Positions 23,625-48,825 of a stretch of DNA of 64,000 nt are shown piece after piece. Each line of letters starts with the position of its first letter. The stretch's first letter is position 1. This stretch comes from Alphaproteobacteria bacterium LSUCC0684 (GTDB taxonomy: Bacteria; Pseudomonadota; Alphaproteobacteria; Puniceispirillales; UBA1172): positions 2,575,001-2,639,000 of the forward strand of contig CP166130.1 of assembly GCA_041228335.1 (NCBI GenBank). The letters run 5' to 3'. The notes under the pieces were generated by a model. That model saw only the letters and a list, made by a program, of their open reading frames with translations, was not told the origin of the DNA and ran no database searches. Made by a program: the position numbers and the translations under genes.

Positions 23625-23703
23625 GATGGCAGATGATCAGCCCGTCATTTTTACTGTTTTCCCTTATGGTTGATTGAAATTCATTGCCATAAGGAGCGCG
23701 CGG

Positions 23704-26700
23704 ATGGCATTTTCAAGCTTCCATCAGTTATCTTCTCTCTTCCCGGATCCCGCGCGTAGCCTTGATCTCAAAAAACAGTTGTATTCCACCACTATGCTAT
23801 GGACGATGGCGGGGTTTGCGCTCACGGCTTGCGGCGGTGGTGGCGGTGGCGGCGGCGGAAGCCGAAGGCCGACCCTAATCAAGGAAGGTGTTGTTTATGA
23901 TGGACCGATTGTCGGAGCACGTGTTTTTCTTGATGTGGATAATAACGGGCGGGAAAGTGAATCGGATATCCTCATCGGTACTACGGATGGAAACGGGCAG
24001 TTTTCGGGCCATGTTCCTGAAGAACACGCAAAAAGTCCTCTCATTGCCGTACTAAATGGTGCAACAGATATAGGTGATACAAATGGTGATTTCCAGGTAG
24101 AAGGGACCTGGCGTGCTCCTCCGGGAAGCACGGTTATCTCCCCTCTGACCGAATTACTGATAGTGGCTAGGGATGAGACAGGGCTCCTGTTTGACGAGTT
24201 GGGTATTCCTGAGACTATTGATGTCACCAAATTCAATCCCTATTCATCTCAAGCACAAGAGGTTGCAGGTCATGCCAAGGTTCGTATGGCAGCCGAGCAA
24301 GTTGCAGGCATACTGGCAAAGGGCGAAAGAAATCTGGTTTCAGACCTCAAGAAAGATCTGGATGACAAACCATCGGATATGGTGCTTTCAGCACGTTCAA
24401 TAACACTAGATGAAGATGTGGTGACCACGGCACAGCAGCTTGCGGATATCACTTTTGAGGATGATGCACTTGGCACGAATACGGCGACGGTCAATACGGT
24501 CGAAGTTGGCGGGAAGGTGCTGTTCGAAATGCGGAGCGGCACGCAATTGTGGCTGAAAGCGGGGGTGTCGCTAGACTATGAGACTGCCACCACCCATGTG
24601 GTCACCATCACACCGAGCGTGAGCGGAACGGGAAGCGCACCAGCCCCACAGACCTTCACCCTGAATGTGACAGATGTGGATGAGCTTCCGGTGTTTGATG
24701 CGGCCTCCTATGTGTTCACGCTTGCGGAGAACGAGGACGGTAGAGGTGGGGGCAGGGCAGTTGTGGTCGGGACAGTCACGGCGAGTGAAGAGGATACCGG
24801 GGACAACCCGCTCACCTATCGGTTTGCTGACGGGACGGATAGTGCCGGGGATTTCCGGATTGATGCGAGCACAGGTGATATCAGCTATGCAGGTTCAGGT
24901 GAGGATTTCGAAGGGGCAACCACGAGCTATGATCTGACGGTGGAGGCGGTGCCAGCAACGTCAGGCAAGGGTACCCAGACGGCGGCGGTGACGGTAACGG
25001 TGACAAATGTGGATGAAGCGCCGAGCGCGATGACCCTGGGCGCGAGCACATTGACCCTCGCGGAGGGGGTGACCACCGCGCGGAAACTTGCAGATATCAG
25101 TTTCACGGATGACGGGTTGGGCACGAACACGGCGGTGGTGGATGATACAACGCTATTCGAGATCCGTGACAGTGACACCGTCGGGGTCAGGGAGTTGTGG
25201 CTGAAAGCGGGGGTGTCGCTGGACTATGAGACGGCCACCAGCCATGCGGTCACCATCACGCCGAGCGTGAGCGGATCAGGGAGTGCCCCAGCAGCACAGA
25301 CCTTTACCCTGAATGTGACGGATATTACCTTTGGTATCGAGCTTGAGGAAGTGGCTTCAACACTATCTGAAACTTCTTCAACCACGGCACTGAAAATGGC
25401 CGAAATCAACATCACCAATGATGCGACACCGGGAGAGCTGATGGAGTTTGTTTCCGACAGTCGTTTTGAAGTACGCGGGGATATGACCAATGGCTACGCG
25501 CTTTGGCTGAAAGCAGGGGAAAAGTTTGATTACGAGCAGGATAACGGCATTGATCTGATCGTTACCATGCAAGGTCGAACCGATGGCGTGGCGATACTCA
25601 AGACTGCTGACTATTTTGTGGGCATTGAAAACGAGATTGAACCCGCAGAGCGGAACGACGACAAGAGTGAAGCCAACCCGTATCTGAAGGACACAACCGA
25701 TGATCCCAGAATCAAGTGGATTATTGACGATGGATATTACTGGACGGATACCCAAGGCAAAGGGGTGGAGATCACCTACAGTTTTTTTGATAAGGATCAG
25801 ACACCAGATAGCGGGGTTTTAACGCCTGATACGTTACACGTCCCTTCGGACGCGCTGAAAGAAAAAGTCCGTGAAAGTCTGGCCTTGTTCGAGCAGGTCT
25901 CACTACTCACTTTTACTGAAGTTCAAGATGACAAGAAAAACACGCTTCGTATTGGTGTCAGTGAAGATGAAAACACGAAAGTGGCCTTTGCCTGGCTGCC
26001 AGGTACCGGTTTTAATGCTGGCAATGTCTGGCTCAATGGCGATGACGCGGCATTCAATAAAGATGATAATCTTTTAGATGGCAGTTACCATACCATCGCT
26101 ATCCTTCATGAAGTAGGCCACGCGCTGGGGTATACCCATAGTCAGGACACTTATGGCGGCAGGCAGCTTCGTCTGCTCGGGCATGAGCACAATACCAGAA
26201 GCTATACCATCATGGCGTATAACGAAGCCTGGAATGATTCGGTCGACAAATACATCAGCAACAGGACCCATGGGCCGACCACCTTGATGATCAACGATAT
26301 CGCCGCATTGCAATATGTCTATGGCACGAATGAGACATGGGCCAGAGACGATACTGTCTACAATCTTCATGAACGTGATGTTCTGCATGAAACAATCTGG
26401 GACACGGGCGGGGAGGATACGATTTCCTGGGAAGCTGGGATAACTTCAGCGCGTATCAATCTCAATGCAGGCAGTTTCAGCAGTTTTGGTGAGGTAACCG
26501 GACCTGAAAGCCCTCTTCTCGGCATTCGAAATGGATTTTCAAGCGGCTCCGGTCTGGTGGCAATTGCGCTTGGGGTGGATATTGAAAACGCGAAAGGCGG
26601 GCTCGGAGACGATACGCTCACCAGCAATGCCTTGGCCAATATCCTTGATGGCGGGGAAGGTCATGATACGGCATCTTATCACTCTTCTCCTGAAGGGGTG

Positions 26701-29409
26701 ACGGTTTCGCTCGGCGAGACGATAGATGGAGAAGGATTTGCGGTAGGGCATAGTGGGGGTGATGCGGCAGGCGACCGGCTCATCCGGATTGAGGAGATTG
26801 AAGGATCATCATTTGATGACAAGCTCACCGGTGATGACGGGGACAACACGTTGATTGGCGGGGCAGGCGGTGATGATCTTGATGGCGGGGCTGGCCATGA
26901 CATTGCATCTTATCATTCATCTCCTGAAGGGGTGACGGTTTCGCTCGGCGAGACGATAGATGGAGATGGGTTTGCGGTAGGGCATAGTGGGGGAGATGCG
27001 GCGGGTGACCGGCTCATTCGCATTGAAGGGGTTGAAGGATCAACATTTGATGACAAGCTCACCGGTGATGACGGGGACAACACGTTGATCGGCGGTGCTG
27101 GCGGTGATGATCTAGATGGCGGGGAAGGTTATGACATTGCATCTTATCATTCTTCTCCTGAAGGGGTGACGGTTTCGCTCGGGGAGATGATAGATGGTGA
27201 TGGATTTGCGGTGGGGCATAGTGGGGGTGATGCGGCAGGCGACCGGCTCATCCGCATTGAGGGCATTATCGGTACAAGGTATGACGATACGCTTGAAGGT
27301 GATGACAGGGTAAATACACTCAACGGTGGCGAAGGGTCTGATCATCTTGAAGGAGGTGGCGGGGCGGATGTGATCGATGGCGGCGAGGGCCAGGATTATG
27401 TTCGTTATACGAACTCGCCTGCCGGAGTCACGGTATCGCTCAATGGTCCCGAAGACAGCGAAGGATATATCATCGGTCATGAGGGTGGTGATGCGGCGGG
27501 CGACCGGCTGCGCGGCATTGAACGTATCTGGGGATCTGATTTTGATGACAGGCTGACCGGCGACGCCGGTATCAACCGGATAAATGGCGGTGCTGGCGCG
27601 GATGTCATTGACGGCGGCGCAGGCAACGACATGTCGATCTACTGGCATTCGACTGAAGCGGTAACGGTTGATCTGGCAGGACCAGTGGATGCGGACGGAT
27701 ATACAATTGGCCATCAAGGCGGTGAAGCGCAAGGCGACAGGTTGAAAGGAATTGAGAATCTTGCGGGCTCCGCCCATGATGACCTTCTTTCAGGCAATGC
27801 GGAGGACAATGTCATCAATGGCGGGGACGGTGCCGATATAATCAATGGCAGAGGCGGTGTTGATACGGCCTCCTATATCCTTTCCAAAAGTGGGGTGACG
27901 ATCCGGCTTGACGAGTTGGATGTGGATGGGTTTGCCTACAACAACGAAGGGGGAGCGGCGGAGCGTGACCGGCTCAAGAGCATAGAGAATCTCTATGGCT
28001 CGGATATGGATGATATCCTGATCGGGAGTAACGTCGCCAACACCTTATGGGGACTTGGTGGTGATGACTATCTTGAGGGCGGGGTCGGTGCGGATACTCT
28101 CGATGGGGGTGACGGTGTTGACGAAGTGAGCTACCAGAGATCGGCCAGCGGGGTTGTAGTCAGTCTTTCCGTTTCAGAAACTCTCAAGATCACGATGGAT
28201 GCGGATGGATATCTTGTTGGCCACAGCAACACCATCCCGGGAGGTGAAGCGGCAGGCGATCGGCTCAAAAACATTGAAAGACTAAGCGGTTCCAACTTCG
28301 TGGATACGCTGACCGGGTCGAATGAAGACAACATCCTTTGGGGGCTGAATGGCGACGATACCATCAGTGGTCTGGATGGTGATGACTGGATCATAGGCGG
28401 TGCTGGCGCGGACTGGATACTGGGGGGAGAAGGTATCGACGGCGCAAGCTATATCAACTCAGATGAGGGCGTGACGGTCTCACTAGAAGAAAAGGATGCA
28501 GCCGGGTTCAGCACAGGTCATACCGGTGGTACCGCACAAGGAGACCAGCTCCAGCATATCGAGAGTCTCGAAGGTTCCATCTATGACGATAAACTCACCG
28601 GTGATGACGGGGAAAACTGGATCTATGGCCTTAGTGGAGATGATACCCTGAAAGGACTTGACGGGGTAGATTGGCTCAACGGTGGTGACGGGGCGGATGA
28701 CCTTGATGGTGGCGGTGGTGTTGACTATGTCAGCTATTATCACTCCAGCGAAGGCGTAACCGTCAACCTTGCCGGAACAAAGGACAAGGACGATTACATT
28801 GTTGGGCATAGTGGCGGCCATGCGGCGGGTGACCGGCTTAAGAGCATAGAGCATCTCTACGGCTCGAATATGGACGATACGCTCACCGGTGATGGCAGGG
28901 AAAACAGAATTCGCGGCTATGACGGCAATGACACGCTTTACGGGGGCAATGGCAAGGACGATCTCTTCGGCGGGGCAGGTGACGATACGCTCAATGGCGG
29001 CAACTCAAGCGATGCGCTTTTTGGTGATGCCGGTGATGATATACTTTACGGAGATGCCGGCCATGATCACCTTTATGGCGATGGTGGGCGGAATGTCCTT
29101 ACCGGCGGCAGCGGAGCCGATCAGTTTGTAATCACCTCTGTCGCAACGGCAATTGCTGACGCGAATGTCATCACGGACTTCAGTCTTTCAGATAAGGACG
29201 GGCTCACCTTCCTTGCGGAGATAAGAAGTATCTGGCTCGATCAGAGGAACGCTGTTGTGACCCGCGAGACGACAAACGATGCCAATGTCAAGGATACGGT
29301 CATCTATACCGATCAGGCGCTGACGGAGATACTTGTCGTGCTTGAAGATTTTACCGGCATGCTCAAGGACAATATTGGCGATACAACGGTTGAACTTAAC
29401 GTAGTCTGA
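23704..29409 (+). CDS. Giant predicted lipoprotein with cadherin-like modules, serralysin (M10) protease domain and RTX repeats
   Basis: 1901 residues from the ATG at 23704 (AAGGAG, spacing 7; a TTG at 23674 is less likely). Seen: a hydrophobic signal ending in the lipobox LTAC with Cys43, nine consecutive glycines, a SdrD/carboxypeptidase-regulatory-like domain (about 53-150), cadherin-like repeats (about 230-640), a metalloprotease with zinc motif HEVGHALGYTH at 802-812 and Met-turn TIMAYN (Met837), and an M10 C-terminal domain containing NLNAGSFSSFG. Then come nine roughly 78-residue repeats (GVTVSL...GDRL...DDxLTG, about 980-1720), nonapeptide GGxGxDxL repeats (about 1733-1805) and a hydrophobic end, VELNVV. 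Serralysins are normally type I-secreted without an N-terminal signal, so the lipobox is odd. No type I transporter is nearby. Likely a calcium-dependent surface or secreted protease; substrate unknown. Confidence 0.85.
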   Translation: MAFSSFHQLSSLFPDPARSLDLKKQLYSTTMLWTMAGFALTACGGGGGGGGGSRRPTLIKEGVVYDGPIVGARVFLDVDNNGRESESDILIGTTDGNGQFSGHVPEEHAKSPLIAVLNGATDIGDTNGDFQVEGTWRAPPGSTVISPLTELLIVARDETGLLFDELGIPETIDVTKFNPYSSQAQEVAGHAKVRMAAEQVAGILAKGERNLVSDLKKDLDDKPSDMVLSARSITLDEDVVTTAQQLADITFEDDALGTNTATVNTVEVGGKVLFEMRSGTQLWLKAGVSLDYETATTHVVTITPSVSGTGSAPAPQTFTLNVTDVDELPVFDAASYVFTLAENEDGRGGGRAVVVGTVTASEEDTGDNPLTYRFADGTDSAGDFRIDASTGDISYAGSGEDFEGATTSYDLTVEAVPATSGKGTQTAAVTVTVTNVDEAPSAMTLGASTLTLAEGVTTARKLADISFTDDGLGTNTAVVDDTTLFEIRDSDTVGVRELWLKAGVSLDYETATSHAVTITPSVSGSGSAPAAQTFTLNVTDITFGIELEEVASTLSETSSTTALKMAEINITNDATPGELMEFVSDSRFEVRGDMTNGYALWLKAGEKFDYEQDNGIDLIVTMQGRTDGVAILKTADYFVGIENEIEPAERNDDKSEANPYLKDTTDDPRIKWIIDDGYYWTDTQGKGVEITYSFFDKDQTPDSGVLTPDTLHVPSDALKEKVRESLALFEQVSLLTFTEVQDDKKNTLRIGVSEDENTKVAFAWLPGTGFNAGNVWLNGDDAAFNKDDNLLDGSYHTIAILHEVGHALGYTHSQDTYGGRQLRLLGHEHNTRSYTIMAYNEAWNDSVDKYISNRTHGPTTLMINDIAALQYVYGTNETWARDDTVYNLHERDVLHETIWDTGGEDTISWEAGITSARINLNAGSFSSFGEVTGPESPLLGIRNGFSSGSGLVAIALGVDIENAKGGLGDDTLTSNALANILDGGEGHDTASYHSSPEGVTVSLGETIDGEGFAVGHSGGDAAGDRLIRIEEIEGSSFDDKLTGDDGDNTLIGGAGGDDLDGGAGHDIASYHSSPEGVTVSLGETIDGDGFAVGHSGGDAAGDRLIRIEGVEGSTFDDKLTGDDGDNTLIGGAGGDDLDGGEGYDIASYHSSPEGVTVSLGEMIDGDGFAVGHSGGDAAGDRLIRIEGIIGTRYDDTLEGDDRVNTLNGGEGSDHLEGGGGADVIDGGEGQDYVRYTNSPAGVTVSLNGPEDSEGYIIGHEGGDAAGDRLRGIERIWGSDFDDRLTGDAGINRINGGAGADVIDGGAGNDMSIYWHSTEAVTVDLAGPVDADGYTIGHQGGEAQGDRLKGIENLAGSAHDDLLSGNAEDNVINGGDGADIINGRGGVDTASYILSKSGVTIRLDELDVDGFAYNNEGGAAERDRLKSIENLYGSDMDDILIGSNVANTLWGLGGDDYLEGGVGADTLDGGDGVDEVSYQRSASGVVVSLSVSETLKITMDADGYLVGHSNTIPGGEAAGDRLKNIERLSGSNFVDTLTGSNEDNILWGLNGDDTISGLDGDDWIIGGAGADWILGGEGIDGASYINSDEGVTVSLEEKDAAGFSTGHTGGTAQGDQLQHIESLEGSIYDDKLTGDDGENWIYGLSGDDTLKGLDGVDWLNGGDGADDLDGGGGVDYVSYYHSSEGVTVNLAGTKDKDDYIVGHSGGHAAGDRLKSIEHLYGSNMDDTLTGDGRENRIRGYDGNDTLYGGNGKDDLFGGAGDDTLNGGNSSDALFGDAGDDILYGDAGHDHLYGDGGRNVLTGGSGADQFVITSVATAIADANVITDFSLSDKDGLTFLAEIRSIWLDQRNAVVTRETTNDANVKDTVIYTDQALTEILVVLEDFTGMLKDNIGDTTVELNVV
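24547..25323 (+). repeat. Duplicated cadherin-like module (two 129-base copies, 648 bases apart)
   Basis: The segment at 24547-24675 recurs nearly unchanged at 25195-25323. Both encode LWLKAGVSLDYETAT followed by a VTITPSVSG.GSAPA.QTFTLNVTD stretch. The match at nucleotide level, including synonymous sites, points to recent duplication or gene conversion inside the RTX protease gene. Confidence 0.8.
26671..27270 (+). repeat. Tandem 234-base near-identical repeats in the RTX region
   Basis: Units begin at 26671, 26905 and 27139, exactly 234 bases (78 codons) apart, each starting ASYHSSPEGVTVSLGE. The first two copies are nearly identical throughout; the third diverges after about 125 bases. 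Six further diverged units follow to about 28870. The gradient suggests stepwise tandem expansion at the 5' side of the array. Confidence 0.9.
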
Positions 29410-40205: not shown

Positions 40206-41225
40206 TTATCCGATCTGTACCCGGAGATGGTCAAGCCAGTTGCGGCGGCAGATCCGGTCGATCAGCTCATTCCCGAAACCTGCCTCCGCCATGGCCTGGA
40301 CAAGACGCGGCAGGCCGGTGCAGTCGCCGATCTCTTCAGGGATCACGGCGCCGTCGAAATCCGAGCCCAGGGCAACCCCGCCTTCACCAAGAAGGCCGAT
40401 GAGATGATCAAGATGCCGGATCAGGAGCGCAAGCGGTGTCGCCGGATCCTTCCGTCCATCTGCACGCAGAAACCCTGCCGCGAAATTGAGCCCGACAATC
40501 CCGCCGCTTTCGGCAATGGCGGCCAGCTGGCGATCCGTCAGGTTGCGGGGGCTCGGGCAGATCGCGTGGGAATTGGAATGGGTTGCGACGAGCGGCTTGT
40601 CGCTTATGGCCGCCACATCCCAGAAACCGGCTTCGTTCAGATGCGACAGATCCACCATGATCCGGCGGCGATTGCAGGCCCGGACAAGGTCTTTGCCTGT
40701 TGCGGTGAGCCCCGGGCCCTGATCAGGGCTACCGGGAAAGCTGAACGGCACCCCGACCCCGAAAATGTTCGGCCTTGACCAGAGCGGGCCGATGGACCTG
40801 AGACCGAGATCATAAAGATCATCCAGAAGGCCGAGATCAGCCGGGATGGCCTCGGCGCCTTCGAGATGGAGGATGGCTGCGATGGCGCCATCCTTCATGG
40901 CTTCATCCACGTCCTCGGCGTCAAGACAGCGGCGGATGACCCCATGATGCCGGTCGGTCAGATGGCGGAAGATCCGGGCCATCTCCATGGTGGCGGCCAT
41001 GGCGCTTTCCTGGTCAATGGGGGATGTGGCCAGAATGGCTTCGCCGGCGGCATTGGTGGCGGGGACGAACATCGCGAAAAACCCGCCGGCAAGCCCCCCC
41101 TGCCTCGCGCGGGGAGCGTCGATATGGGTGGTGTCCATGCCATCGAGAAAGCCTTTGCCTGATGTGTCACCGGCAAGCCAGAGGCGGAGAAGAATATCGT
41201 TGTGGCCATCAAAAACAGGTTGCAT
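40206..41225 (-). CDS. Membrane dipeptidase-family (M19) metallopeptidase
   Basis: 339 residues. Renal dipeptidase family, binuclear zinc: the HxD motif is in VFDGHNDILLRLW, a bridging Glu in AILHLEGAEAIP, and later ligands in VDLSHLNEAGF and THSNSHAICPSPRNLTD. M19 enzymes cleave dipeptides, often with a C-terminal D-residue. No signal peptide, so cytosolic. It begins one base after the GH84 stop and is probably cotranscribed with anmK and GH84, which suggests a role in breaking down murein-derived dipeptides; that is inference from context. Confidence 0.88.
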   Translation of the reverse strand: MQPVFDGHNDILLRLWLAGDTSGKGFLDGMDTTHIDAPRARQGGLAGGFFAMFVPATNAAGEAILATSPIDQESAMAATMEMARIFRHLTDRHHGVIRRCLDAEDVDEAMKDGAIAAILHLEGAEAIPADLGLLDDLYDLGLRSIGPLWSRPNIFGVGVPFSFPGSPDQGPGLTATGKDLVRACNRRRIMVDLSHLNEAGFWDVAAISDKPLVATHSNSHAICPSPRNLTDRQLAAIAESGGIVGLNFAAGFLRADGRKDPATPLALLIRHLDHLIGLLGEGGVALGSDFDGAVIPEEIGDCTGLPRLVQAMAEAGFGNELIDRICRRNWLDHLRVQIG

Positions 41226-41226
41226 G

Positions 41227-42390
41227 TCAGGCGGGCCTTTCCGGTTTTCCGGTCAGCGCATTGAGCGCGGGCGGGTAGGTTTTCCTGACCCGGAGCTCAT
41301 CCATCCTGCCATCGAGGCGCAACAGATCACCACGCAAGGCCATCAGAAACGGATACCATTCCCTGGCAAGAGGGGTTTTCCACCGCCATAAAAGCTCATC
41401 AAGCGCCTCAAGCCATGTCGGGATAAGGCGCAGGTCCAACATGGTGCCGGGCAGGGGGGCGCGCGGGTCCGGCGGAAGATCAAAAAACGGGGCGACTTTG
41501 AGAAACGCCTCCGGAACGCCGTGATCTTGCAGGGCACGGGTCCATCCTGCCTGATCCGGCCCTCGCTCCATCAGCGCCAGCAGCAGCATGTCGGTATGGG
41601 GCAGGCCCGTCGGGTTGAGCAGTATCTGCCGGATTTCCCCGCGCCCCCGCCATGGGCCAAGCCAGAGCTGGCGCGGGCAGTAATCATGGGCGTAGAGATT
41701 ATCCCACCAGATCACCCGTTCGGGGGCAGTGCCGAGCCGGCCAAGGCCGGTATGCTCCAGCCCCGGTTCAGGATCCACGATATAGGTGCCGCACCAGGTG
41801 ATGAGATGCAAAGGGTCAAGGGTGGATATCATCTCTTCAAGGTAGCCTTCGGCCTTATCGAGAATTTCATCGGCATAGATTCGCGGTGTCAGGCTGACTG
41901 CCTCTCCCAGGCTTTCGGAGAGCGCATTGGCCAGCGCCGCATGAGCTTCACCTTCCTTGCGGAAATGCCCTGACCGGCCGGGAAAGCCTGCGTCGATATC
42001 ATCCATCAGCAGCATGATGGAGGCGGCGCCGAGATCTTTGAGCATCCGGGCTTTCCGGCAAAGGACTATGAGGTCATCACCGCTGCCGGTGAATGATCCG
42101 AAATCGAAATCCAGCCCGGGCGCGATGCCGGCCATGAGATGAAGGCCGAGGGTTTCGGCCCCGGCGGCAAAACGGCTGAACTCTTCCTGCCAGGTTCTGT
42201 CCCATGGCTGCCGCCAGTTGCGGCGGTGGCAGGGATCTTCCTTCGGGGCGTAGAGATAGGTATTCATCCCGAGGCGGGCAAGGGTCTCCAGTATCTGCCC
42301 CCGCTCATCCCAGGTGAGCAGGCGTCCATAATACCCTTCGATATATCCCCGGTGAGGTGCCGAGGTTTTGTCTGGAATGCTGTTGATCAT
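41227..42390 (-). CDS. GH84 (O-GlcNAcase-fold) beta-N-acetylglucosaminidase, cytosolic
   Basis: 387 residues from the ATG at 42390 (AAAGGGC upstream). Strong GH84 signatures: HRGYIEGYYGRLLTWDER (residues 13-30), MNTYLYAPKEDPCHR, the consecutive catalytic aspartates Asp130-Asp131 in IMLLMDDIDAGF, ITWCGTYIVDPE, and WDNLYAHDYCPRQLWLGPWRG, which resembles the asparagine-bearing loop of human O-GlcNAcase. No signal peptide and no carbohydrate-binding domain. Located between anmK and the M19 gene, it most plausibly removes terminal GlcNAc from imported anhydromuropeptides, a job NagZ (GH3) does in E. coli. A different N-acetylglucosaminide cannot be excluded. Confidence 0.85.
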   Translation of the reverse strand: MINSIPDKTSAPHRGYIEGYYGRLLTWDERGQILETLARLGMNTYLYAPKEDPCHRRNWRQPWDRTWQEEFSRFAAGAETLGLHLMAGIAPGLDFDFGSFTGSGDDLIVLCRKARMLKDLGAASIMLLMDDIDAGFPGRSGHFRKEGEAHAALANALSESLGEAVSLTPRIYADEILDKAEGYLEEMISTLDPLHLITWCGTYIVDPEPGLEHTGLGRLGTAPERVIWWDNLYAHDYCPRQLWLGPWRGRGEIRQILLNPTGLPHTDMLLLALMERGPDQAGWTRALQDHGVPEAFLKVAPFFDLPPDPRAPLPGTMLDLRLIPTWLEALDELLWRWKTPLAREWYPFLMALRGDLLRLDGRMDELRVRKTYPPALNALTGKPERPA

Positions 42391-42477
42391 TTCTGCCCTT
42401 TTTCTCTTCCGCTTACCAGTTAACACGAATTGACCGGAGAATTGAAGCCAGCCGGTCGGTGCATGAGCTGATGATCT

Positions 42478-43602
42478 TCATGCGGGATTTTGTCCGCTCG
42501 CGGCTCTCCCGGGGTGGGGGGCAGGGGCAAGCCTGCCGCCGGTCATGGGCCGGGCCACGCCGGTTGTTCCGGGAAAACTGATGGGCAGGCCGCGTCGTGA
42601 CCGCATCGCAAGAAAGGCCATCAGCTCCGCCTCGATGAGGCCTGAGGCAAGACCGTGATCTTCCATGGTGGTCACCTTCAACGGCAGCGCGTCCCGGATC
42701 ATGCCGACAAGGGTCGGGTTGGCGGCGCCGCCGCCCGCCAGGATAACCGAGTTTGGCCGGGGTGTTGCCGCCAAGAGGCCCATCGCCAGGCTTGCCGCGG
42801 TGAGCGAGGTGAGGGTTGCCATGGCATCGGCAAGACGATGGCCGCTCAACGTATCTGGTTTCAGCATGGTGTCCAGCGCCTTGCGGTCGAGTGATTTCGG
42901 CGGGCTTGCGGCGAAAAACGGATGCGTGAGCGCAGTCCTGATCCATGCCTCATCCCGTATCCCGGACCGGGCGGTTGCGCCATCTTTGTCAAACTGCTGG
43001 CCCGTGCGCTGGCGCATCGCGGCATCCATCAACCCGTTGCCCGGGCCGGTATCAAAGCCGGTGAGCGCAACTCCATCCCAGAAGGTCACGTTGGTGATGC
43101 CGCCGATATTCACCACCGCCGCCGGCAGATCGAGCCCAAGTTCCTCGATGATGGCCCGATGATAGACCGGCGCCAGTGGCGCGCCCTGACCGCCCGAGGC
43201 CATATCCGCATGGCGGAAATCATAGACCACATCCATCCCGAGGGTTTCGGCAATCAGGCCTGCATCGCCGACCTGAAGGGTGATGCCGTCTTCGGGGGCG
43301 TGCCGGATCGTCTGGCCATGAAACCCGATCAGCCGGGGGGTGATGCCTGATGTTTCAATCAGGGCCCGGGCCGCGGCGGCGTGATCTTCGGCGACAAGAC
43401 GGGCGAGGTCCTGATCCCCGGGATCGGGGGTCTCGAAGGCCGCAAAAATGGCGGCGCGGGTTTCTGGACGCATCGGGGTGGTGGCATGAAAACCCGTGCG
43501 CTCAATCTTCTCCCCGTCGGTGAAGACAAGACTGGCATCGATACCGTCGACACTGGTGCCCGCCATCAGGCCGAGAACCGGGATAAGAGAGGATCTGTGC
43601 AT
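42478..43602 (-). CDS. anmK: Anhydro-N-acetylmuramic acid kinase
   Basis: Opens and phosphorylates anhydroMurNAc to MurNAc 6-phosphate. 374 residues, normal length. Hexokinase/Hsp70-type ATPase fold with PVLGLMAGTSVDGIDASLV at the N-terminus, GFHGQTIRHAPEDG, VVNIGGITNVTFW and FDTGPGNGLMDAAMR. It is divergent from murQ (47-base gap), which uses its product. Confidence 0.95.
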   Translation of the reverse strand: MHRSSLIPVLGLMAGTSVDGIDASLVFTDGEKIERTGFHATTPMRPETRAAIFAAFETPDPGDQDLARLVAEDHAAAARALIETSGITPRLIGFHGQTIRHAPEDGITLQVGDAGLIAETLGMDVVYDFRHADMASGGQGAPLAPVYHRAIIEELGLDLPAAVVNIGGITNVTFWDGVALTGFDTGPGNGLMDAAMRQRTGQQFDKDGATARSGIRDEAWIRTALTHPFFAASPPKSLDRKALDTMLKPDTLSGHRLADAMATLTSLTAASLAMGLLAATPRPNSVILAGGGAANPTLVGMIRDALPLKVTTMEDHGLASGLIEAELMAFLAMRSRRGLPISFPGTTGVARPMTGGRLAPAPHPGRAASGQNPA

Positions 43603-43649
43603 GGCTTCCGGACTTGGCCTTCCCTTCAGAGCGGTGTATCGTCGGAAGT

Positions 43650-44399
43650 ATGAATGAAAATCCTGAAACTACCGAATCAATTCCGGATGCTGCCCGCTGG
43701 CTGGATCAGCTCAGCGATCCGGCAGCGCTTGGCATCATGGCCGAAGATCAGGCTGGGGCCGCGGCGGCCGTGCGCGCCTCCCTGCCCGAGATCGAAAAAG
43801 CCAGCCGGGCAATCCTTGATCGCCTCAAGGCCAGTTCAACCGGCCGGATCATCTATGCCGGGGCAGGAACATCGATCCGGATCGGGGTGCAGGACGGGGT
43901 TGAGCTGACGCCGACCTTCGACTGGCCCGAAGATCGCGCGCTCTACCTTATCGCCGGTGGCCCCCGGGCGTTGCTCCGGTCCGTCGAGAACGCCGAAGAC
44001 AATGCCGAAGACGCGCAAGATCAGGTCAGGGCAAACACTGTCGGCCCCGATGATGTGCTGATCGGGATTGCGGCCAGCGGTTCCACCCCCTTTACCTGTG
44101 CGGCGGTTGAAACAGCACGCCGCCTGGGGGCGCTGACCATCGGGATTGCCAATAATCCCGCCTCCCGTCTTGTGGCGCTGGCCGAGCATGGCATCACGCT
44201 CAAGACCGGGGCGGAAAGCGTTGCCGGCTCAACCCGGCTCAAGGCAGGAACGGCACAGAAAATCTGCCTTAACCTCATCTCGACGCTGGTGATGGTCAGG
44301 CTGGGGCGTGTCCGCAACGGCATGATGAGCGCCATGCGGGCCAGCAATGCCAAATTGCGGGCGCGGCAGATCAAGATCGACGCGGCGCTCAAATCGTGA
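43650..44399 (+). CDS. murQ: N-acetylmuramic acid 6-phosphate etherase, short form
   Basis: Cleaves the lactyl ether of MurNAc 6-phosphate to GlcNAc 6-phosphate. 249 residues from the ATG at 43650. SIS-domain core with YAGAGTSIRIGVQDGVELTP (the putative acid Glu85) and SVENAEDNAEDAQ (putative second Glu113), IGIAASGSTPFTCAAVE, and SVAGSTRLKAGTAQKICLN. E. coli MurQ has about 298 residues; here the protein ends soon after RARQIKIDAALKS, so the C-terminal helical segment of about 40-50 residues is missing. The active-site core is intact. It converges on the YkuD gene with an 11-base overlap. Confidence 0.92.
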   Translation: MNENPETTESIPDAARWLDQLSDPAALGIMAEDQAGAAAAVRASLPEIEKASRAILDRLKASSTGRIIYAGAGTSIRIGVQDGVELTPTFDWPEDRALYLIAGGPRALLRSVENAEDNAEDAQDQVRANTVGPDDVLIGIAASGSTPFTCAAVETARRLGALTIGIANNPASRLVALAEHGITLKTGAESVAGSTRLKAGTAQKICLNLISTLVMVRLGRVRNGMMSAMRASNAKLRARQIKIDAALKS

Positions 44400-44901
44400 T
44401 CAGCATCACCGCATCGGCCGATATCATGGCCAGAACTTCAAGCATGTCATCGCGGCGGATCGCCACGCATCCGGCGGTTTCGGTCTGGCCTTCGGCAAGG
44501 CAGTGAAAGAAGATGGCACTGCCGCGGTGAGGCTGGACCGGATCGTCGTTATAGCCCAGCACGACGATGATGTCATAGGCGCCATCCTGCCGCCACAACG
44601 CCTCATGCGACGCGGCAAAGGGCAGCTGGACAAGGGTGTTATAGGCGGGGTGATCTCCCTCATCGCACCAGCCATCCAGGCGGGTTATGGGGCGGCATTC
44701 AAGAGAGGTGCGCGGCTCATCAAGGCGATCAGCACGGAAGAAGACGGATCTGAGGCTCCAGTCTCCGGCCGGGGTGCAGCCATCACCTTCGCGTTTGTCC
44801 CCGGCCGGGATGATGCCATTGCGGCCGATCCGGCACGGGATACGCCGGCTGCCGCATTTCAGGACAAACCCTTCCCCTTCGGCCTGGACCTTGAACAGCA
44901 T
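44389..44901 (-). CDS. YkuD-domain protein without signal peptide; likely cytosolic L,D-carboxypeptidase
   Basis: 170 residues. The catalytic region AIFFHCLAEGQTETAGCVAI has His133 and nucleophile Cys145, with Arg149/Arg150 following, the YkuD/ErfK layout. The N-terminus MLFKVQAEGEGFVLKCG has no signal sequence or membrane helix, so it cannot crosslink periplasmic peptidoglycan. Signal-less YkuD proteins such as Acinetobacter ElsL work as cytosolic L,D-carboxypeptidases in recycling. Flanked by murQ and ampG, this gene fits that role in place of LdcA. Confidence 0.8.
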   Translation of the reverse strand: MLFKVQAEGEGFVLKCGSRRIPCRIGRNGIIPAGDKREGDGCTPAGDWSLRSVFFRADRLDEPRTSLECRPITRLDGWCDEGDHPAYNTLVQLPFAASHEALWRQDGAYDIIVVLGYNDDPVQPHRGSAIFFHCLAEGQTETAGCVAIRRDDMLEVLAMISADAVMLITI

Positions 44902-44963
44902 GTTCTTGTCACCTCCCGTTTCTTGCGAATATACTTACCCGAGTATGTTGGGGAGGAATGACA

Positions 44964-46289
44964 ATGGCAACAACTTCACTCATGGACGGATATAACGACC
45001 GGCGGATGTTCAGGATTTTCCTGATCGGCGCCATCAGCGGATTTCCCTGGGTGCTGATCGGCAGCGCCCTCAGTCTCTGGCTCAAGGAAGACGGGCTCAG
45101 CCGAAGCACGGTTGGTTTTGCCGGGCTGATTTTCGGGGTCTATGCGTTCAATTTTCTCTGGGCGCCGCTGATTGACCGGATCAGGGTGCCCTGGCTCAGC
45201 GCCCGCATCGGGGCCAGAAAAGCCTGGATCATGCTCTTTCAGGGGGTGATCATCCTCGCGCTCATGGGCTGGACCATGCTTGATCCGACGGCCCAGCTTG
45301 AAATGGTCATTTTCCTCGGCCTCATCATTGCCATCGCTTCCGCCTCGCAGGATATCACCATTGACGCCTTCAGGATCGAGCAGGCCGGGCAGGATGAGAA
45401 AGCCGTCATGGCCGCCGGTGCCGCCATGGCGGTCATTGGCTGGTGGAGCGGGTTCAAGCTTGGCGGGCTCATCACCTTCTTCATCGCGGATGCGTTTGAG
45501 GCCGCCGGGCATGCCGATTACTGGCAGATGACCTTTGTTGCGACCGCCGGCATGATGGTGCTCATGAATATCGGGCTCATCTTCGTTCCCGAAGCGCTGC
45601 CGGACAAAAGCAAGCCAGCCAGCGAAAGAGCAGGTTTTGCCGAAGTGCTGGACTGGCTCCGGCACACGGTGATCGAACCGCTCTGGTCCTTTTTCCGCAA
45701 TAACGGGCTTGCCATCGGTCTTGGGCTGCTTGGCTTTATCTTTCTCTTCAAGATCGGTGAGGCCTTTCTCGGCAAGATGTCCATCATCTTCTACCGCGAG
45801 ATGGGGTTCAGCAAATCCGATATCGGGATCTACTCCAAGGGGCTTGGCTGGATCACGACGGTGGCCTTCACGCTGATCGGCGGCTGGTTTGCCATCAAGG
45901 CAGGATCCTTGCGGGCGCTGCTGTTTTCCGGCATCGCCATGGCGGGCACCAATATTCTTTTCGCCGTCCTCTACTGGTCGGGAAAATCCACCTGGCTCTT
46001 TGCGCTTGCCGTGGTGCTGGATGATCTCGCGGCAGCCTTCGCCACGGTCGCCTTCGTGACCTTCATCTCCCTTCTCGTGGACCGGAAATATACGGCAACG
46101 CAATACGCGCTGCTGGCCTCTATCGGCACGGCAGGCAAAACGCTGCTGGCGTCGTCATCCGGGGCGCTGGTGGACTGGCTTGAAGGAGACTGGGGCATTT
46201 TCTTCATCATCACCGCCCTGATGGTCATCCCGTCGCTTCTGATACTGCTGAAACTGGGCCCGCATCTCAGAGGCGCGCAATCCGGGTGA
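44964..46289 (+). CDS. ampG: AmpG-family muropeptide permease
   Basis: Inner-membrane major facilitator importing GlcNAc-anhydroMurNAc (peptides). 441 residues with about 12 hydrophobic segments. Features: FLIGAISGFPWVLIGSALSLWL (N-terminal helix, quoted in part: ISGFPWVLIGSALSLWL), ASQDITIDAFRIE, a characteristic AmpG motif in helix 4, and KIGEAFLGKMSIIFYREMGF. The GGGGAGG ribosome site at 44950-44956 is 7 bases before the ATG at 44964, so I prefer that to the ATG at 44958. Divergent from the YkuD gene. Confidence 0.93.
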   Translation: MATTSLMDGYNDRRMFRIFLIGAISGFPWVLIGSALSLWLKEDGLSRSTVGFAGLIFGVYAFNFLWAPLIDRIRVPWLSARIGARKAWIMLFQGVIILALMGWTMLDPTAQLEMVIFLGLIIAIASASQDITIDAFRIEQAGQDEKAVMAAGAAMAVIGWWSGFKLGGLITFFIADAFEAAGHADYWQMTFVATAGMMVLMNIGLIFVPEALPDKSKPASERAGFAEVLDWLRHTVIEPLWSFFRNNGLAIGLGLLGFIFLFKIGEAFLGKMSIIFYREMGFSKSDIGIYSKGLGWITTVAFTLIGGWFAIKAGSLRALLFSGIAMAGTNILFAVLYWSGKSTWLFALAVVLDDLAAAFATVAFVTFISLLVDRKYTATQYALLASIGTAGKTLLASSSGALVDWLEGDWGIFFIITALMVIPSLLILLKLGPHLRGAQSG

Positions 46290-47016
46290 TCGGCAACCCC
46301 ATCCGGGCAAGCCGCTCTCTTGCCGTCTTGAGAGGTTCGGACGCGGTCATGGCGTGAAACATATTGGCATGGATGAGGGTGATGCCGTCGCGCATGATCC
46401 CGACATGCCCTTTCCAGAAGACAAGATCGCCTCGCCGAAGGGGTGCATCCGCGGCAAGTGTATGCCCGAGGGCGCGTTCCTGATCGCCGCTGTTTCGCGG
46501 CGCATCAATCCCCCCGCCGGCCAGCGCAAGCTGGACCAGCGCCGAGCAGTCAATCCCGATCGTATCCCTGCCGCCCCAGCGATAGGGTGTTCCGCTGAGA
46601 TCTTCGGCAAGGCTTACCCAGTCCTCCACCTTGCCCGCAAGAGGCGTGATCTGGGCAAGGGGGATGAACCCCCTGCCCCCGGAAGGAAGGGCGATTTCCG
46701 CGGTCGCATCGGTCTGGTCCAGCACGGCAAGCCGCGCCCCCATGGGCCGGTAACCGATGGCCGGGCTTTTGATATCGGCGGTCCGCGTCACCAGCCCGCG
46801 GGGGCTGATCACCCGGTGGCTTGCCGCTGGCATGGTGCCGATATCCCGGGCCTCAATCCAGCCTTCATACCCGTCAACCTCAAGGATGATCCGGGCCCAT
46901 CCGCCGGTCTCTTCAAGCAGGGTCACGGTCTCGCCATGGAGGGCATCGGTCTCGCGGCCGCTCTCACGGTCAGGTTCGGCATGGATCGGGGTGGAGGCTG
47001 GCAGGATTGCGGGCAT
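46267..47016 (-). CDS. NlpC/P60 family peptidase with SH3-like domains, no signal peptide
   Basis: 249 residues. Two bacterial SH3-like regions (about 25-65 and 70-125) and a C-terminal NlpC/P60 domain with Cys157 in IGIDCSALVQLAL, His204 in WKGHVGIMRDG and His216 in LIHANMFH. The architecture resembles YkfC-type gamma-D-glutamyl-L-diamino acid endopeptidases that process free murein peptides. The start MPAILPASTP is not an export signal. Its ATG shares a base with the amidase stop (TGATG), so the two are coupled. The 3' end overlaps ampG by 23 bases. Confidence 0.88.
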   Translation of the reverse strand: MPAILPASTPIHAEPDRESGRETDALHGETVTLLEETGGWARIILEVDGYEGWIEARDIGTMPAASHRVISPRGLVTRTADIKSPAIGYRPMGARLAVLDQTDATAEIALPSGGRGFIPLAQITPLAGKVEDWVSLAEDLSGTPYRWGGRDTIGIDCSALVQLALAGGGIDAPRNSGDQERALGHTLAADAPLRRGDLVFWKGHVGIMRDGITLIHANMFHAMTASEPLKTARERLARMGLPITRIARL

Positions 47017-47438
47017 CAGGCCAGCCCTTCCCGCCTGGCCCAGGCCTTGACATCGAAATTCGGGCAGGTTTTTTCCGTTGAGTCAAAATCGCAATGGCCG
47101 CAGACTTGCGCGGAAGGATAGGCGGCTTTCCAGCCTGAAATGACCTCGGTCAGGGATTTCATCTGGGCGGGGGTGAACTGGTGCCGTCCGATCAGGCAAA
47201 CGCCGAGGCTTTCGGTATTGTGGCCATAGACATGGGCGCCGACCCAGCAATCCGGGCGGCCATGTTCCACCTGACCGTCACGGGTGATGACCCGGTGATA
47301 GCCGACGCCCTCCCAGCCGAAGCCCAGATGCATGGCGTGTATGTCGCGTAATGTCAGGTGTTCTTCATCCGGGGTGTCGGAGCAATGCACCACAAGATAC
47401 CGGATATCGTGATGTTCAAGCATGGATGGGGGCGACAT
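47016..47438 (-). CDS. N-acetylmuramoyl-L-alanine amidase, AmpD/T7-lysozyme type
   Basis: 140 residues from the ATG at 47438, which has AAGGATC upstream; the frame runs to 47498 without family match. Amidase_2/PGRP fold with zinc ligands His18 (YLVVHCSDTP), His115 and Cys125 (GHCDFDSTEKTCPNFDV) and the lysine two residues before the cysteine as in T7 lysozyme. It cleaves the MurNAc-L-Ala bond. No signal peptide, so it suits the cytosolic AmpD step on anhydromuropeptides, although a phage-type origin of the fold is possible. Confidence 0.88.
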   Translation of the reverse strand: MSPPSMLEHHDIRYLVVHCSDTPDEEHLTLRDIHAMHLGFGWEGVGYHRVITRDGQVEHGRPDCWVGAHVYGHNTESLGVCLIGRHQFTPAQMKSLTEVISGWKAAYPSAQVCGHCDFDSTEKTCPNFDVKAWARREGLA

Positions 47439-47527: not shown

Positions 47528-48247
47528 ATGCCTGATACGAACACCTCACCAGCTGCCACCCTGCCCCAAGGCGTCATCTTTGATATGGACGGGCTGCTGC
47601 TCGATACCGAAAGGCTGTCCCGGTTGAGTTTTGACGCCCTGGCCCGGGCAAGAGGTGTCCCTGATCCTGATTTTATCTTCCCGCAACTGGTTGGCCGGAG
47701 CCGCGATGATCACCAGATGATCTTTGCCCGGCATCTCCCCCTAGGCCTTGATCCGGTCACTTTCGATGCCGAGTGGAAAGAGGCCTTTCAGGCATTGCTC
47801 ACCGATCATGTGCCGGTCAAACCCGGAGCTGAAACCGTGCTTGCCTATTTAAACGGGCGGCGCATTCCATGCGGGCTTGCCACGTCGAGTGCCCGCGACA
47901 AAGCGCTCACCTATCTTGGGCGGGCGGGGTTGCTCGATTATTTCGATGTGCTGGTGGGGGGCGATGAAATCCCTGCCAGCAAACCTGCGCCGGATATCTA
48001 TCTCGAAGCAGCAGGACGGCTTGGCGTTGCGCCGCCGGAGGTGCTCGCGTTCGAAGATTCCGATAACGGGGTGCGATCTGCCCATGCGGCGGGAATGCAA
48101 ATCGTCCAGATCCCTGATCTTGCCCGGCCTTCGGCGGAAGTGCTGGCTTTCGGTCACCTGACGGCGACGTCGCTAATGGAGGCCGCGGCAAAGCTGGGCT
48201 GGCCGGAATTTCCCGGTATTGACATGAACGATCGGGACCCTAACTGA
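47528..48247 (+). CDS. HAD-family phosphatase / beta-phosphoglucomutase-like
   Basis: 239 residues. HAD subfamily I with a helical cap: nucleophile motif VIFDMDGLLLDTERL, motif II LATSSARDKA, the lysine in IPASKPAPDIYLEAA and motif III FEDSDNGVRSAHAAGM. Similar to sugar-phosphatases and beta-phosphoglucomutases. It starts 89 bases from the divergent amidase gene, so a sugar-phosphate substrate from muropeptide recycling is possible (MupP is a HAD enzyme), but nothing in the sequence proves it. Confidence 0.85.
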   Translation: MPDTNTSPAATLPQGVIFDMDGLLLDTERLSRLSFDALARARGVPDPDFIFPQLVGRSRDDHQMIFARHLPLGLDPVTFDAEWKEAFQALLTDHVPVKPGAETVLAYLNGRRIPCGLATSSARDKALTYLGRAGLLDYFDVLVGGDEIPASKPAPDIYLEAAGRLGVAPPEVLAFEDSDNGVRSAHAAGMQIVQIPDLARPSAEVLAFGHLTATSLMEAAAKLGWPEFPGIDMNDRDPN

Positions 48248-48282: not shown

Positions 48283-48825
48283 ATGCGATGTTTTCTCCTT
48301 TTTATGGTGCTGCTGATGCCCCTCATGTCTTCTGCCCGGGCGGAGACCGCCCATGATTTCTCTTTCACTGCCATCGATGGCGGTGATTTGCCTCTTTCCG
48401 GTTTCAAGGGTCAGGTGCTGCTGGTGGTGAATACGGCATCACGCTGCGGGTTTACCTCCCAGTACGATGATCTTCAGGATCTTTACGAAACCTACAAGGA
48501 GGACGGTCTTGTGGTGCTTGGCGTGCCAAGCAATGATTTTGGCGGTCAGGAACCGGGCCAGGTCGACGAGATCAAGGAATTCTGCGAGGTGAATTTCAAC
48601 ATCACCTTCCCCATGACCGACAAGACAAAGGTCAAGGGCGAGATGGCGCATCCCTTTTATCAATGGGCTGCAAGCGAGTTGGGAATCATCGCCAAGCCGC
48701 GGTGGAATTTCCATAAATATCTCATTGGTCGTGATGGCCGGCTGATCGACTGGTTCTCCTCCCCGACACGCCCGTCTTCCAGCAAAATGCGCAACGCCGT
48801 GGAAGCGGCTCTTGGCAGATCGTGA
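48283..48825 (+). CDS. Exported glutathione peroxidase-family protein
   Basis: 180 residues with a signal peptide (MRCFLLFMVLLMPLMSSARA) predicting periplasmic location. Thioredoxin-fold peroxidase with the peroxidatic Cys in NTASRCGFTSQYD, the conserved GVPSNDFGGQEPG (catalytic Gln) and KPRWNFHKYLIG (catalytic Trp-Asn). It uses Cys instead of selenocysteine, and like most bacterial members may use thioredoxin-type reductants instead of glutathione. Followed by a terminator. Confidence 0.92.
   Translation: MRCFLLFMVLLMPLMSSARAETAHDFSFTAIDGGDLPLSGFKGQVLLVVNTASRCGFTSQYDDLQDLYETYKEDGLVVLGVPSNDFGGQEPGQVDEIKEFCEVNFNITFPMTDKTKVKGEMAHPFYQWAASELGIIAKPRWNFHKYLIGRDGRLIDWFSSPTRPSSSKMRNAVEAALGRS

Follow-up and report, generated by a model that had tools for sequence, protein, structure and literature searches.

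How can imported muropeptides be stripped of their N-acetylglucosamine (GlcNAc) in a bacterium in which NagZ, the glycosidase of this step, is not found? The question is raised by eight consecutive genes at positions 40206–47438 of a 64,000-nucleotide stretch, the window, which comprises bases 2575001–2639000 of contig CP166130.1 (assembly GCA_041228335.1) in the complete 2.70 Mb genome of Alphaproteobacteria bacterium LSUCC0684, a member of the order Puniceispirillales (SAR116). We hold with good confidence that the locus is a SAR116 peptidoglycan (muropeptide) recycling cluster, in which a cytosolic enzyme of glycoside hydrolase family 84 (GH84) acts in place of NagZ.

The evidence starts from family profile searches of the genome, on which all absences reported for it rest. 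No match was obtained in this complete genome for GH3, the family of NagZ (PF00933), and control searches gave matches. Across the order, GH3 was found in none of 61 genomes, 37 of them of high quality, against 332 of 387 genomes in a sample of the class (Fisher p about 1e-44, a value that ignores shared ancestry). GH84 is present in 43 of the 61; in the class sample it occurs in only 13 genomes, six inside the order, all without GH3, and seven outside it, all with GH3. Moreover, GH84 and AnmK agree, being both present or both absent, in 57 of the order's 61 genomes, and among the 37 good ones 27 have both, one has GH84 only, none has AnmK only and nine have neither (P-values for these counts again take no account of shared ancestry). 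In a family scan the glycosidase of the cluster matches GH84 only and shows no GH3 domain. From its sequence and context, a NagZ-like action may be assigned to GH84, which is a probable non-orthologous replacement of NagZ. A first-pass annotation of the window had listed the GH84 gene correctly, but missed that it stands in NagZ's place in a NagZ-less group.

The eight genes and their family names, as given in that annotation, were all recovered by profile in the following places of the window:

40206–41225, minus strand: Peptidase M19 dipeptidase, 339 amino acids (Pfam Peptidase_M19, 303.8 bits)
41227–42390, minus strand: GH84 (O-GlcNAcase-family) beta-N-acetylglucosaminidase, predicted, 387 amino acids from the ATG at 42390 (NAGidase, PF07555, 130.1 bits)
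42478–43602, minus strand: AnmK, anhydro-N-acetylmuramic acid kinase, 374 amino acids (PF03702, 252.9 bits)
43650–44399, plus strand: MurQ, N-acetylmuramic acid 6-phosphate etherase, 249 amino acids (NCBIfam PRK05441, 289 bits)
44389–44901, minus strand: leaderless YkuD-domain protein, 170 amino acids (PF03734, 43 bits)
44958–46289, plus strand: AmpG muropeptide permease, 443 amino acids (TIGR00901, 357.8 bits, above cut-off)
46267–47016, minus strand: YkfC-like NlpC/P60 peptidase, 249 amino acids (Pfam NLPC_P60 and SH3_16)
47016–47438, minus strand: AmpD-type Amidase_2 N-acetylmuramoyl-L-alanine amidase, 140 amino acids from the ATG at 47438 (PF01510, 56.6 bits)

Export was checked by a simple hydrophobicity scan from every possible start rather than by SignalP. 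None of the seven soluble proteins has an export signal, alternative starts included, which bears out the annotation's claim that all products except the permease lack one; a clear signal-peptide-like N-terminus was seen in the same scan for a neighbouring control gene at 48283. The annotation had also described the genes as linked by overlaps and short gaps. Overlaps do exist, tail to tail between MurQ and YkuD (11 base pairs, bp) and between AmpG and NlpC (23 bp), but the linkage was overstated, since the genes alternate in five strand blocks: M19-GH84-AnmK (minus), MurQ (plus), YkuD (minus), AmpG (plus) and NlpC-AmpD (minus). The only tight same-strand pairs are M19/GH84, with a gap of 1 bp, and NlpC/AmpD, with an overlap of 1 bp. 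The alternating strands rule out a single operon. Several promoters are therefore required, and the locus is a gene cluster.

Regarding the GH84 enzyme itself, its PF07555 score stands far above the cut-off of 25 bits, and an alternative GTG start at 42426 would give a protein of 399 amino acids. The catalytic pair D130/D131 is invariant in 19 GH84 sequences, and so are K50, Y172, W229, N231, D236, Y237 and N259, pocket-lining residues of O-GlcNAcase (OGA). In a profile search of the PDB with this protein, human OGA and OgOGA ranked high. The AlphaFold2 model, with a mean predicted local distance difference test score of 86, superposes through residues 10–384 on human OGA with Z 36.2 over 359 aligned residues, at a root-mean-square deviation of 3.4 Å and 23% identity, and its OGA fold extends to the helical C-terminal part.

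The close relatives of this enzyme belong largely to SAR116, including Candidatus Puniceispirillum, and their surroundings were compared. In each of 20 loci from relatives, read over at most 20 kb, between four and eight of the eight families occur close to GH84, so that the genes are clustered there and not scattered, as expected for the dedicated cytosolic recycling locus that the annotation had proposed. When 33 SAR116 loci of at least 20 kb are considered, AnmK and AmpG are near GH84 in all 33, together with YkuD in 31, a PIG-L/LmbE-family deacetylase in 31, MurQ in 30, AmpD in 24 and NlpC in 24. The protein identity of the cluster genes between relatives is roughly 30–75%, and because the cluster recurs at such distances the grouping is far beyond chance. 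Order and content do vary by local rearrangements and losses within the 20 loci: family f1 largely keeps the gene order of the window, in family f4 the AmpG-YkuD pair sits beyond intervening genes on the other side, and several genera have no M19 gene near the cluster. The flanking obgE-proB and short-chain dehydrogenase/reductase genes are common to several near relatives. Gene fusions add to this picture. AmpD is fused to NlpC/P60 in four genomes (L040:2045-3226, L041:6631-7863, L042:8703-9932 and L048:12130-13383), and one metagenome-derived case of a GH84-M19 fusion of 671 amino acids (L033:9040-11055) links the sugar and peptide branches. Both GH84 and AnmK are missing from 17 of the 61 genomes (for instance G020, G033, G041 and G043), some of them at least 95% complete, which suggests that recycling was lost in parts of the order.

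A second lineage shows a similar arrangement. Around the GH84 genes of Granulosicoccaceae (Gammaproteobacteria), AmpG, AmpD and NlpC are each nearby in 15 of 20 loci, and some of these loci also have AnmK and MurQ. No GH3 at all was found in 11 of the 20 genomes, whose completeness is not given. As for the GH3 proteins of the family, all seven scanned stay under the 207 bits required for NagZ and were rejected as such; they are either of about 840 amino acids and xylosidase/glucosidase-like, or begin with a lipoprotein- or signal-like start. The remaining GH3 hits, outside the seven, are one that looks exported (L161), a fragment (L162) and an 884-amino-acid frame (L163). Four NagZ-related GH3 proteins below the cut-off, with lipoprotein- or signal-like N-termini (L156, L157, L159 and L160), are possible exported relatives of NagZ, judging from these features. 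In the phylogenetic tree, the GH84 enzymes of SAR116 and Granulosicoccaceae form one clade (support 100/99), apart from other alphaproteobacterial GH84 proteins; the tree does not resolve the deep branching inside the clade and therefore gives no direction for a possible transfer.

This distribution also bears on whether the enzyme could instead be a protein O-GlcNAcase, or another beta-GlcNAc glycosidase (acting on chitobiose, for example), whose product feeds amino-sugar metabolism, with a different enzyme performing the NagZ step. The fold and active site are indeed of O-GlcNAcase type, and Thermobaculum terrenum is reported to have a functional O-GlcNAc hydrolase of bacterial origin (PMC4683255). 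Against this, GH84 tracks AnmK across genomes and adjoins AmpG, AmpD and AnmK in two bacterial classes, NagZ was not found in the order, a fusion with M19 exists, and the protein has no signal for reaching external sugars. In our opinion such a role is improbable.

For the recycling cluster we propose a pathway in which the substrates and the order of the steps are predicted throughout. AmpG would import GlcNAc-anhydroMurNAc-peptides (anhydroMurNAc, anhydro-N-acetylmuramic acid), the cytosolic GH84 would remove GlcNAc instead of NagZ, and AmpD would release the peptide. On the sugar branch, AnmK and MurQ would then convert anhydroMurNAc into GlcNAc-6-phosphate. AnmK matches NCBIfam PRK09585.1-5 over cut-off, and its closest solved counterpart is the AnmK 3qbw (E 4e-60). 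MurQ covers positions 5–241 of the 300 of model PRK05441, its C-terminal part being missing, and the MurQ proteins of relatives (L031-L049) are likewise short, with 243–266 amino acids against the 300-position model; the alignment with the solved MurQ 4lzj (E 7e-45) includes both conserved Glu motifs.

In this genome, nothing passed the TIGR00221 cut-off for NagA. Most relatives have the PIG-L/LmbE deacetylase (PF02585) between AnmK and GH84, for example at L033:8208-8918 on the minus strand; this cluster deacetylase occurs in 30 of the 61 genomes and was not found in the genome under study. Among eight genomes tested, NagA was over cut-off in G025 only, where there is no LmbE match and the NagA gene lies beside the cluster (L048:14867-16078); five genomes with LmbE (G014, G016, G019, G022 and G027) gave no NagA over cut-off, and G000 and G004 had neither. 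This pattern hints at LmbE as the probable substitute for the missing NagA in most relatives. The clusters of genus g10 (L041, L042 and L048) showed neither MurQ nor LmbE, and their AnmK is divergent, which possibly reflects a different sugar branch. Regarding GlcNAc, the search of this genome for a BadF-type GlcNAc kinase gave nothing above cut-off, and a ROK kinase (G000:C1:1475076) was rejected for the role, as it scores best as fructokinase and lies below both the fructokinase and the NagK cut-offs. Thus, the "full cytosolic set" of the first-pass annotation holds only in part, as NagZ, LdcA, NagA, a clear GlcNAc kinase and LmbE were all not found in this genome.

Some points weigh against recycling through GH84. 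The fate of GlcNAc and of GlcNAc-6-phosphate is left unexplained here by the lack of NagA and of a clear kinase. One genome, G015 (86% complete), has AnmK and no GH84; its AnmK contig is only 6.2 kb long and carries no other cluster gene, therefore nothing follows from it. Finally, an enzyme of another glycosidase family could do the NagZ step, and the genome searches for glycosidases covered the families GH3 and GH84, so that a second glycosidase, such as a cytosolic GH20, might share or even dominate the role of NagZ in SAR116. No other glycosidase was matched among the cluster genes scanned, and the genomes without GH84 are mostly without AnmK too; we give this alternative little credence.

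On the peptide branch, the AmpD-type amidase aligns with T7 lysozyme amidase (E 4e-25), including the His/His/Cys zinc-ligand positions. The leaderless YkuD protein would trim tetrapeptides to tripeptides. His133, Gly144 and Cys145 are invariant in 15 sequences of it, a comparison with solved structures gave no useful match, and LdcA (S66, PF02016) had no match in eight genomes; by its sequence features the protein is probably an ElsL-like cytosolic L,D-carboxypeptidase that replaces LdcA. The NlpC/P60 protein aligns with Bacillus cereus YkfC (3h41) and keeps the L-Ala-binding residues: E22, T23 and Y50 coincide with the YkfC letters and correspond to Glu83, Thr84 and Tyr118 through an inferred constant offset of 22, and relatives have E or D, T or S and an invariant Tyr at these S2-site positions. 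Since binding of free L-Ala is reported for these residues, the enzyme would act after AmpD, and the AmpD-NlpC fusions fit this order; its predicted cut, of L-Ala-gamma-D-Glu from meso-diaminopimelic acid, would need the L-Ala amine that AmpD sets free. The M19 protein has 3ly0 and 3fdg, both M19 dipeptidases, as nearest solved structures (E about 1e-101). The M19 dipeptidase family has an L,D preference, from which splitting of L-Ala-D-Glu is predicted.

Such a branch dismantles the stem peptides, which would suit feeding as well as recycling. The same enzymes and reactions might thus serve a catabolic purpose, the use of peptidoglycan fragments of other organisms in seawater, and the relatives are indeed mostly SAR116 and other environmental genomes. 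On the other hand, none of the seven enzymes of the cluster carries a signal, so that it encodes no exported hydrolase, and AmpG imports anhydro-muropeptides, which typically come from the cell's own lytic transglycosylases. We regard feeding as a tentative explanation, and a rather unlikely one. In the recycling that we prefer, three functions might have changed hands: GH84 would have taken over the NagZ step in SAR116 and Granulosicoccaceae and LmbE that of NagA in SAR116, so that NagZ, LdcA and NagA would all have been replaced by unrelated enzymes in one cluster. We lean towards this wider proposal, with considerable reserve.

Among the neighbouring genes, a haloacid dehalogenase-type protein at 47528 was rejected as MupP (37 bits with the MupP model against a cut-off of 359), being closer to beta-phosphoglucomutase-like phosphatases. 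Elsewhere in the window, positions 23674–29409 of the plus strand encode a protein of 1911 amino acids in which a cadherin domain and an M10 peptidase domain of matrixin type accompany many calcium-binding repeats of the RTX kind, and the guanine-cytosine skew is raised across the stretch that holds it.

In the open-access literature we found no paper linking GH84 to peptidoglycan recycling and none on recycling in SAR116, in agreement with the earlier statement that no locus with exactly this content had been described. OgOGA, a bacterial enzyme that serves as structural model of human OGA, has a role stated as unknown (PMC3814719); the proposal offers a testable function for cytosolic bacterial O-GlcNAcase relatives, an enzyme type whose role has been unknown so far, and known OGA inhibitors could be used as probes of the GH84 step. 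In addition, surveys that score the pathway by NagZ, LdcA and NagA would miss recycling in SAR116, a widespread ocean lineage.

Comparison with known systems places the locus among them. The recycling pathway of E. coli (AmpG, NagZ, AmpD, LdcA, AnmK, MurQ, NagA and Mpl) likewise combines import, deglycosylation and amide cleavage with rescue of the sugar, and has AmpG, an AmpD-type amidase, AnmK and MurQ in common with it. In SAR116, however, the genes are clustered, GH84 is found for NagZ, a leaderless YkuD where LdcA was not found and, in most relatives, PIG-L/LmbE where NagA was not found, with a YkfC-like NlpC and M19 in addition. Caulobacter crescentus, of the same class, also has AmpG, an amidase and AnmK, and no LdcA; it uses NagZ, NagA, NagK and a MurU shunt, without MurQ, LdcA and Mpl (PMC13046382, PMC11980594), whereas SAR116 has MurQ and GH84. 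The cytosolic YkuD L,D-carboxypeptidases ElsL/LdcV (ElsL of Acinetobacter, PMC8649774) are likewise leaderless and occur in a genome without LdcA; the likeness is one of features, and the SAR116 gene differs in sitting inside a recycling cluster. With the YkfC NlpC/P60 enzymes of Bacillus and Chlamydia (PMC9928106) the SAR116 protein shares the SH3b and NlpC/P60 domains and the L-Ala-binding site residues, but it belongs to an AmpG-type Gram-negative cluster and is fused to AmpD in some relatives. Finally, the fold and catalytic residues of the GH84 O-GlcNAcases (human OGA, OgOGA, NagJ of C. perfringens and BT_4395) are those of the SAR116 enzyme, which is set apart from them by its gene context, that of muropeptide recycling.

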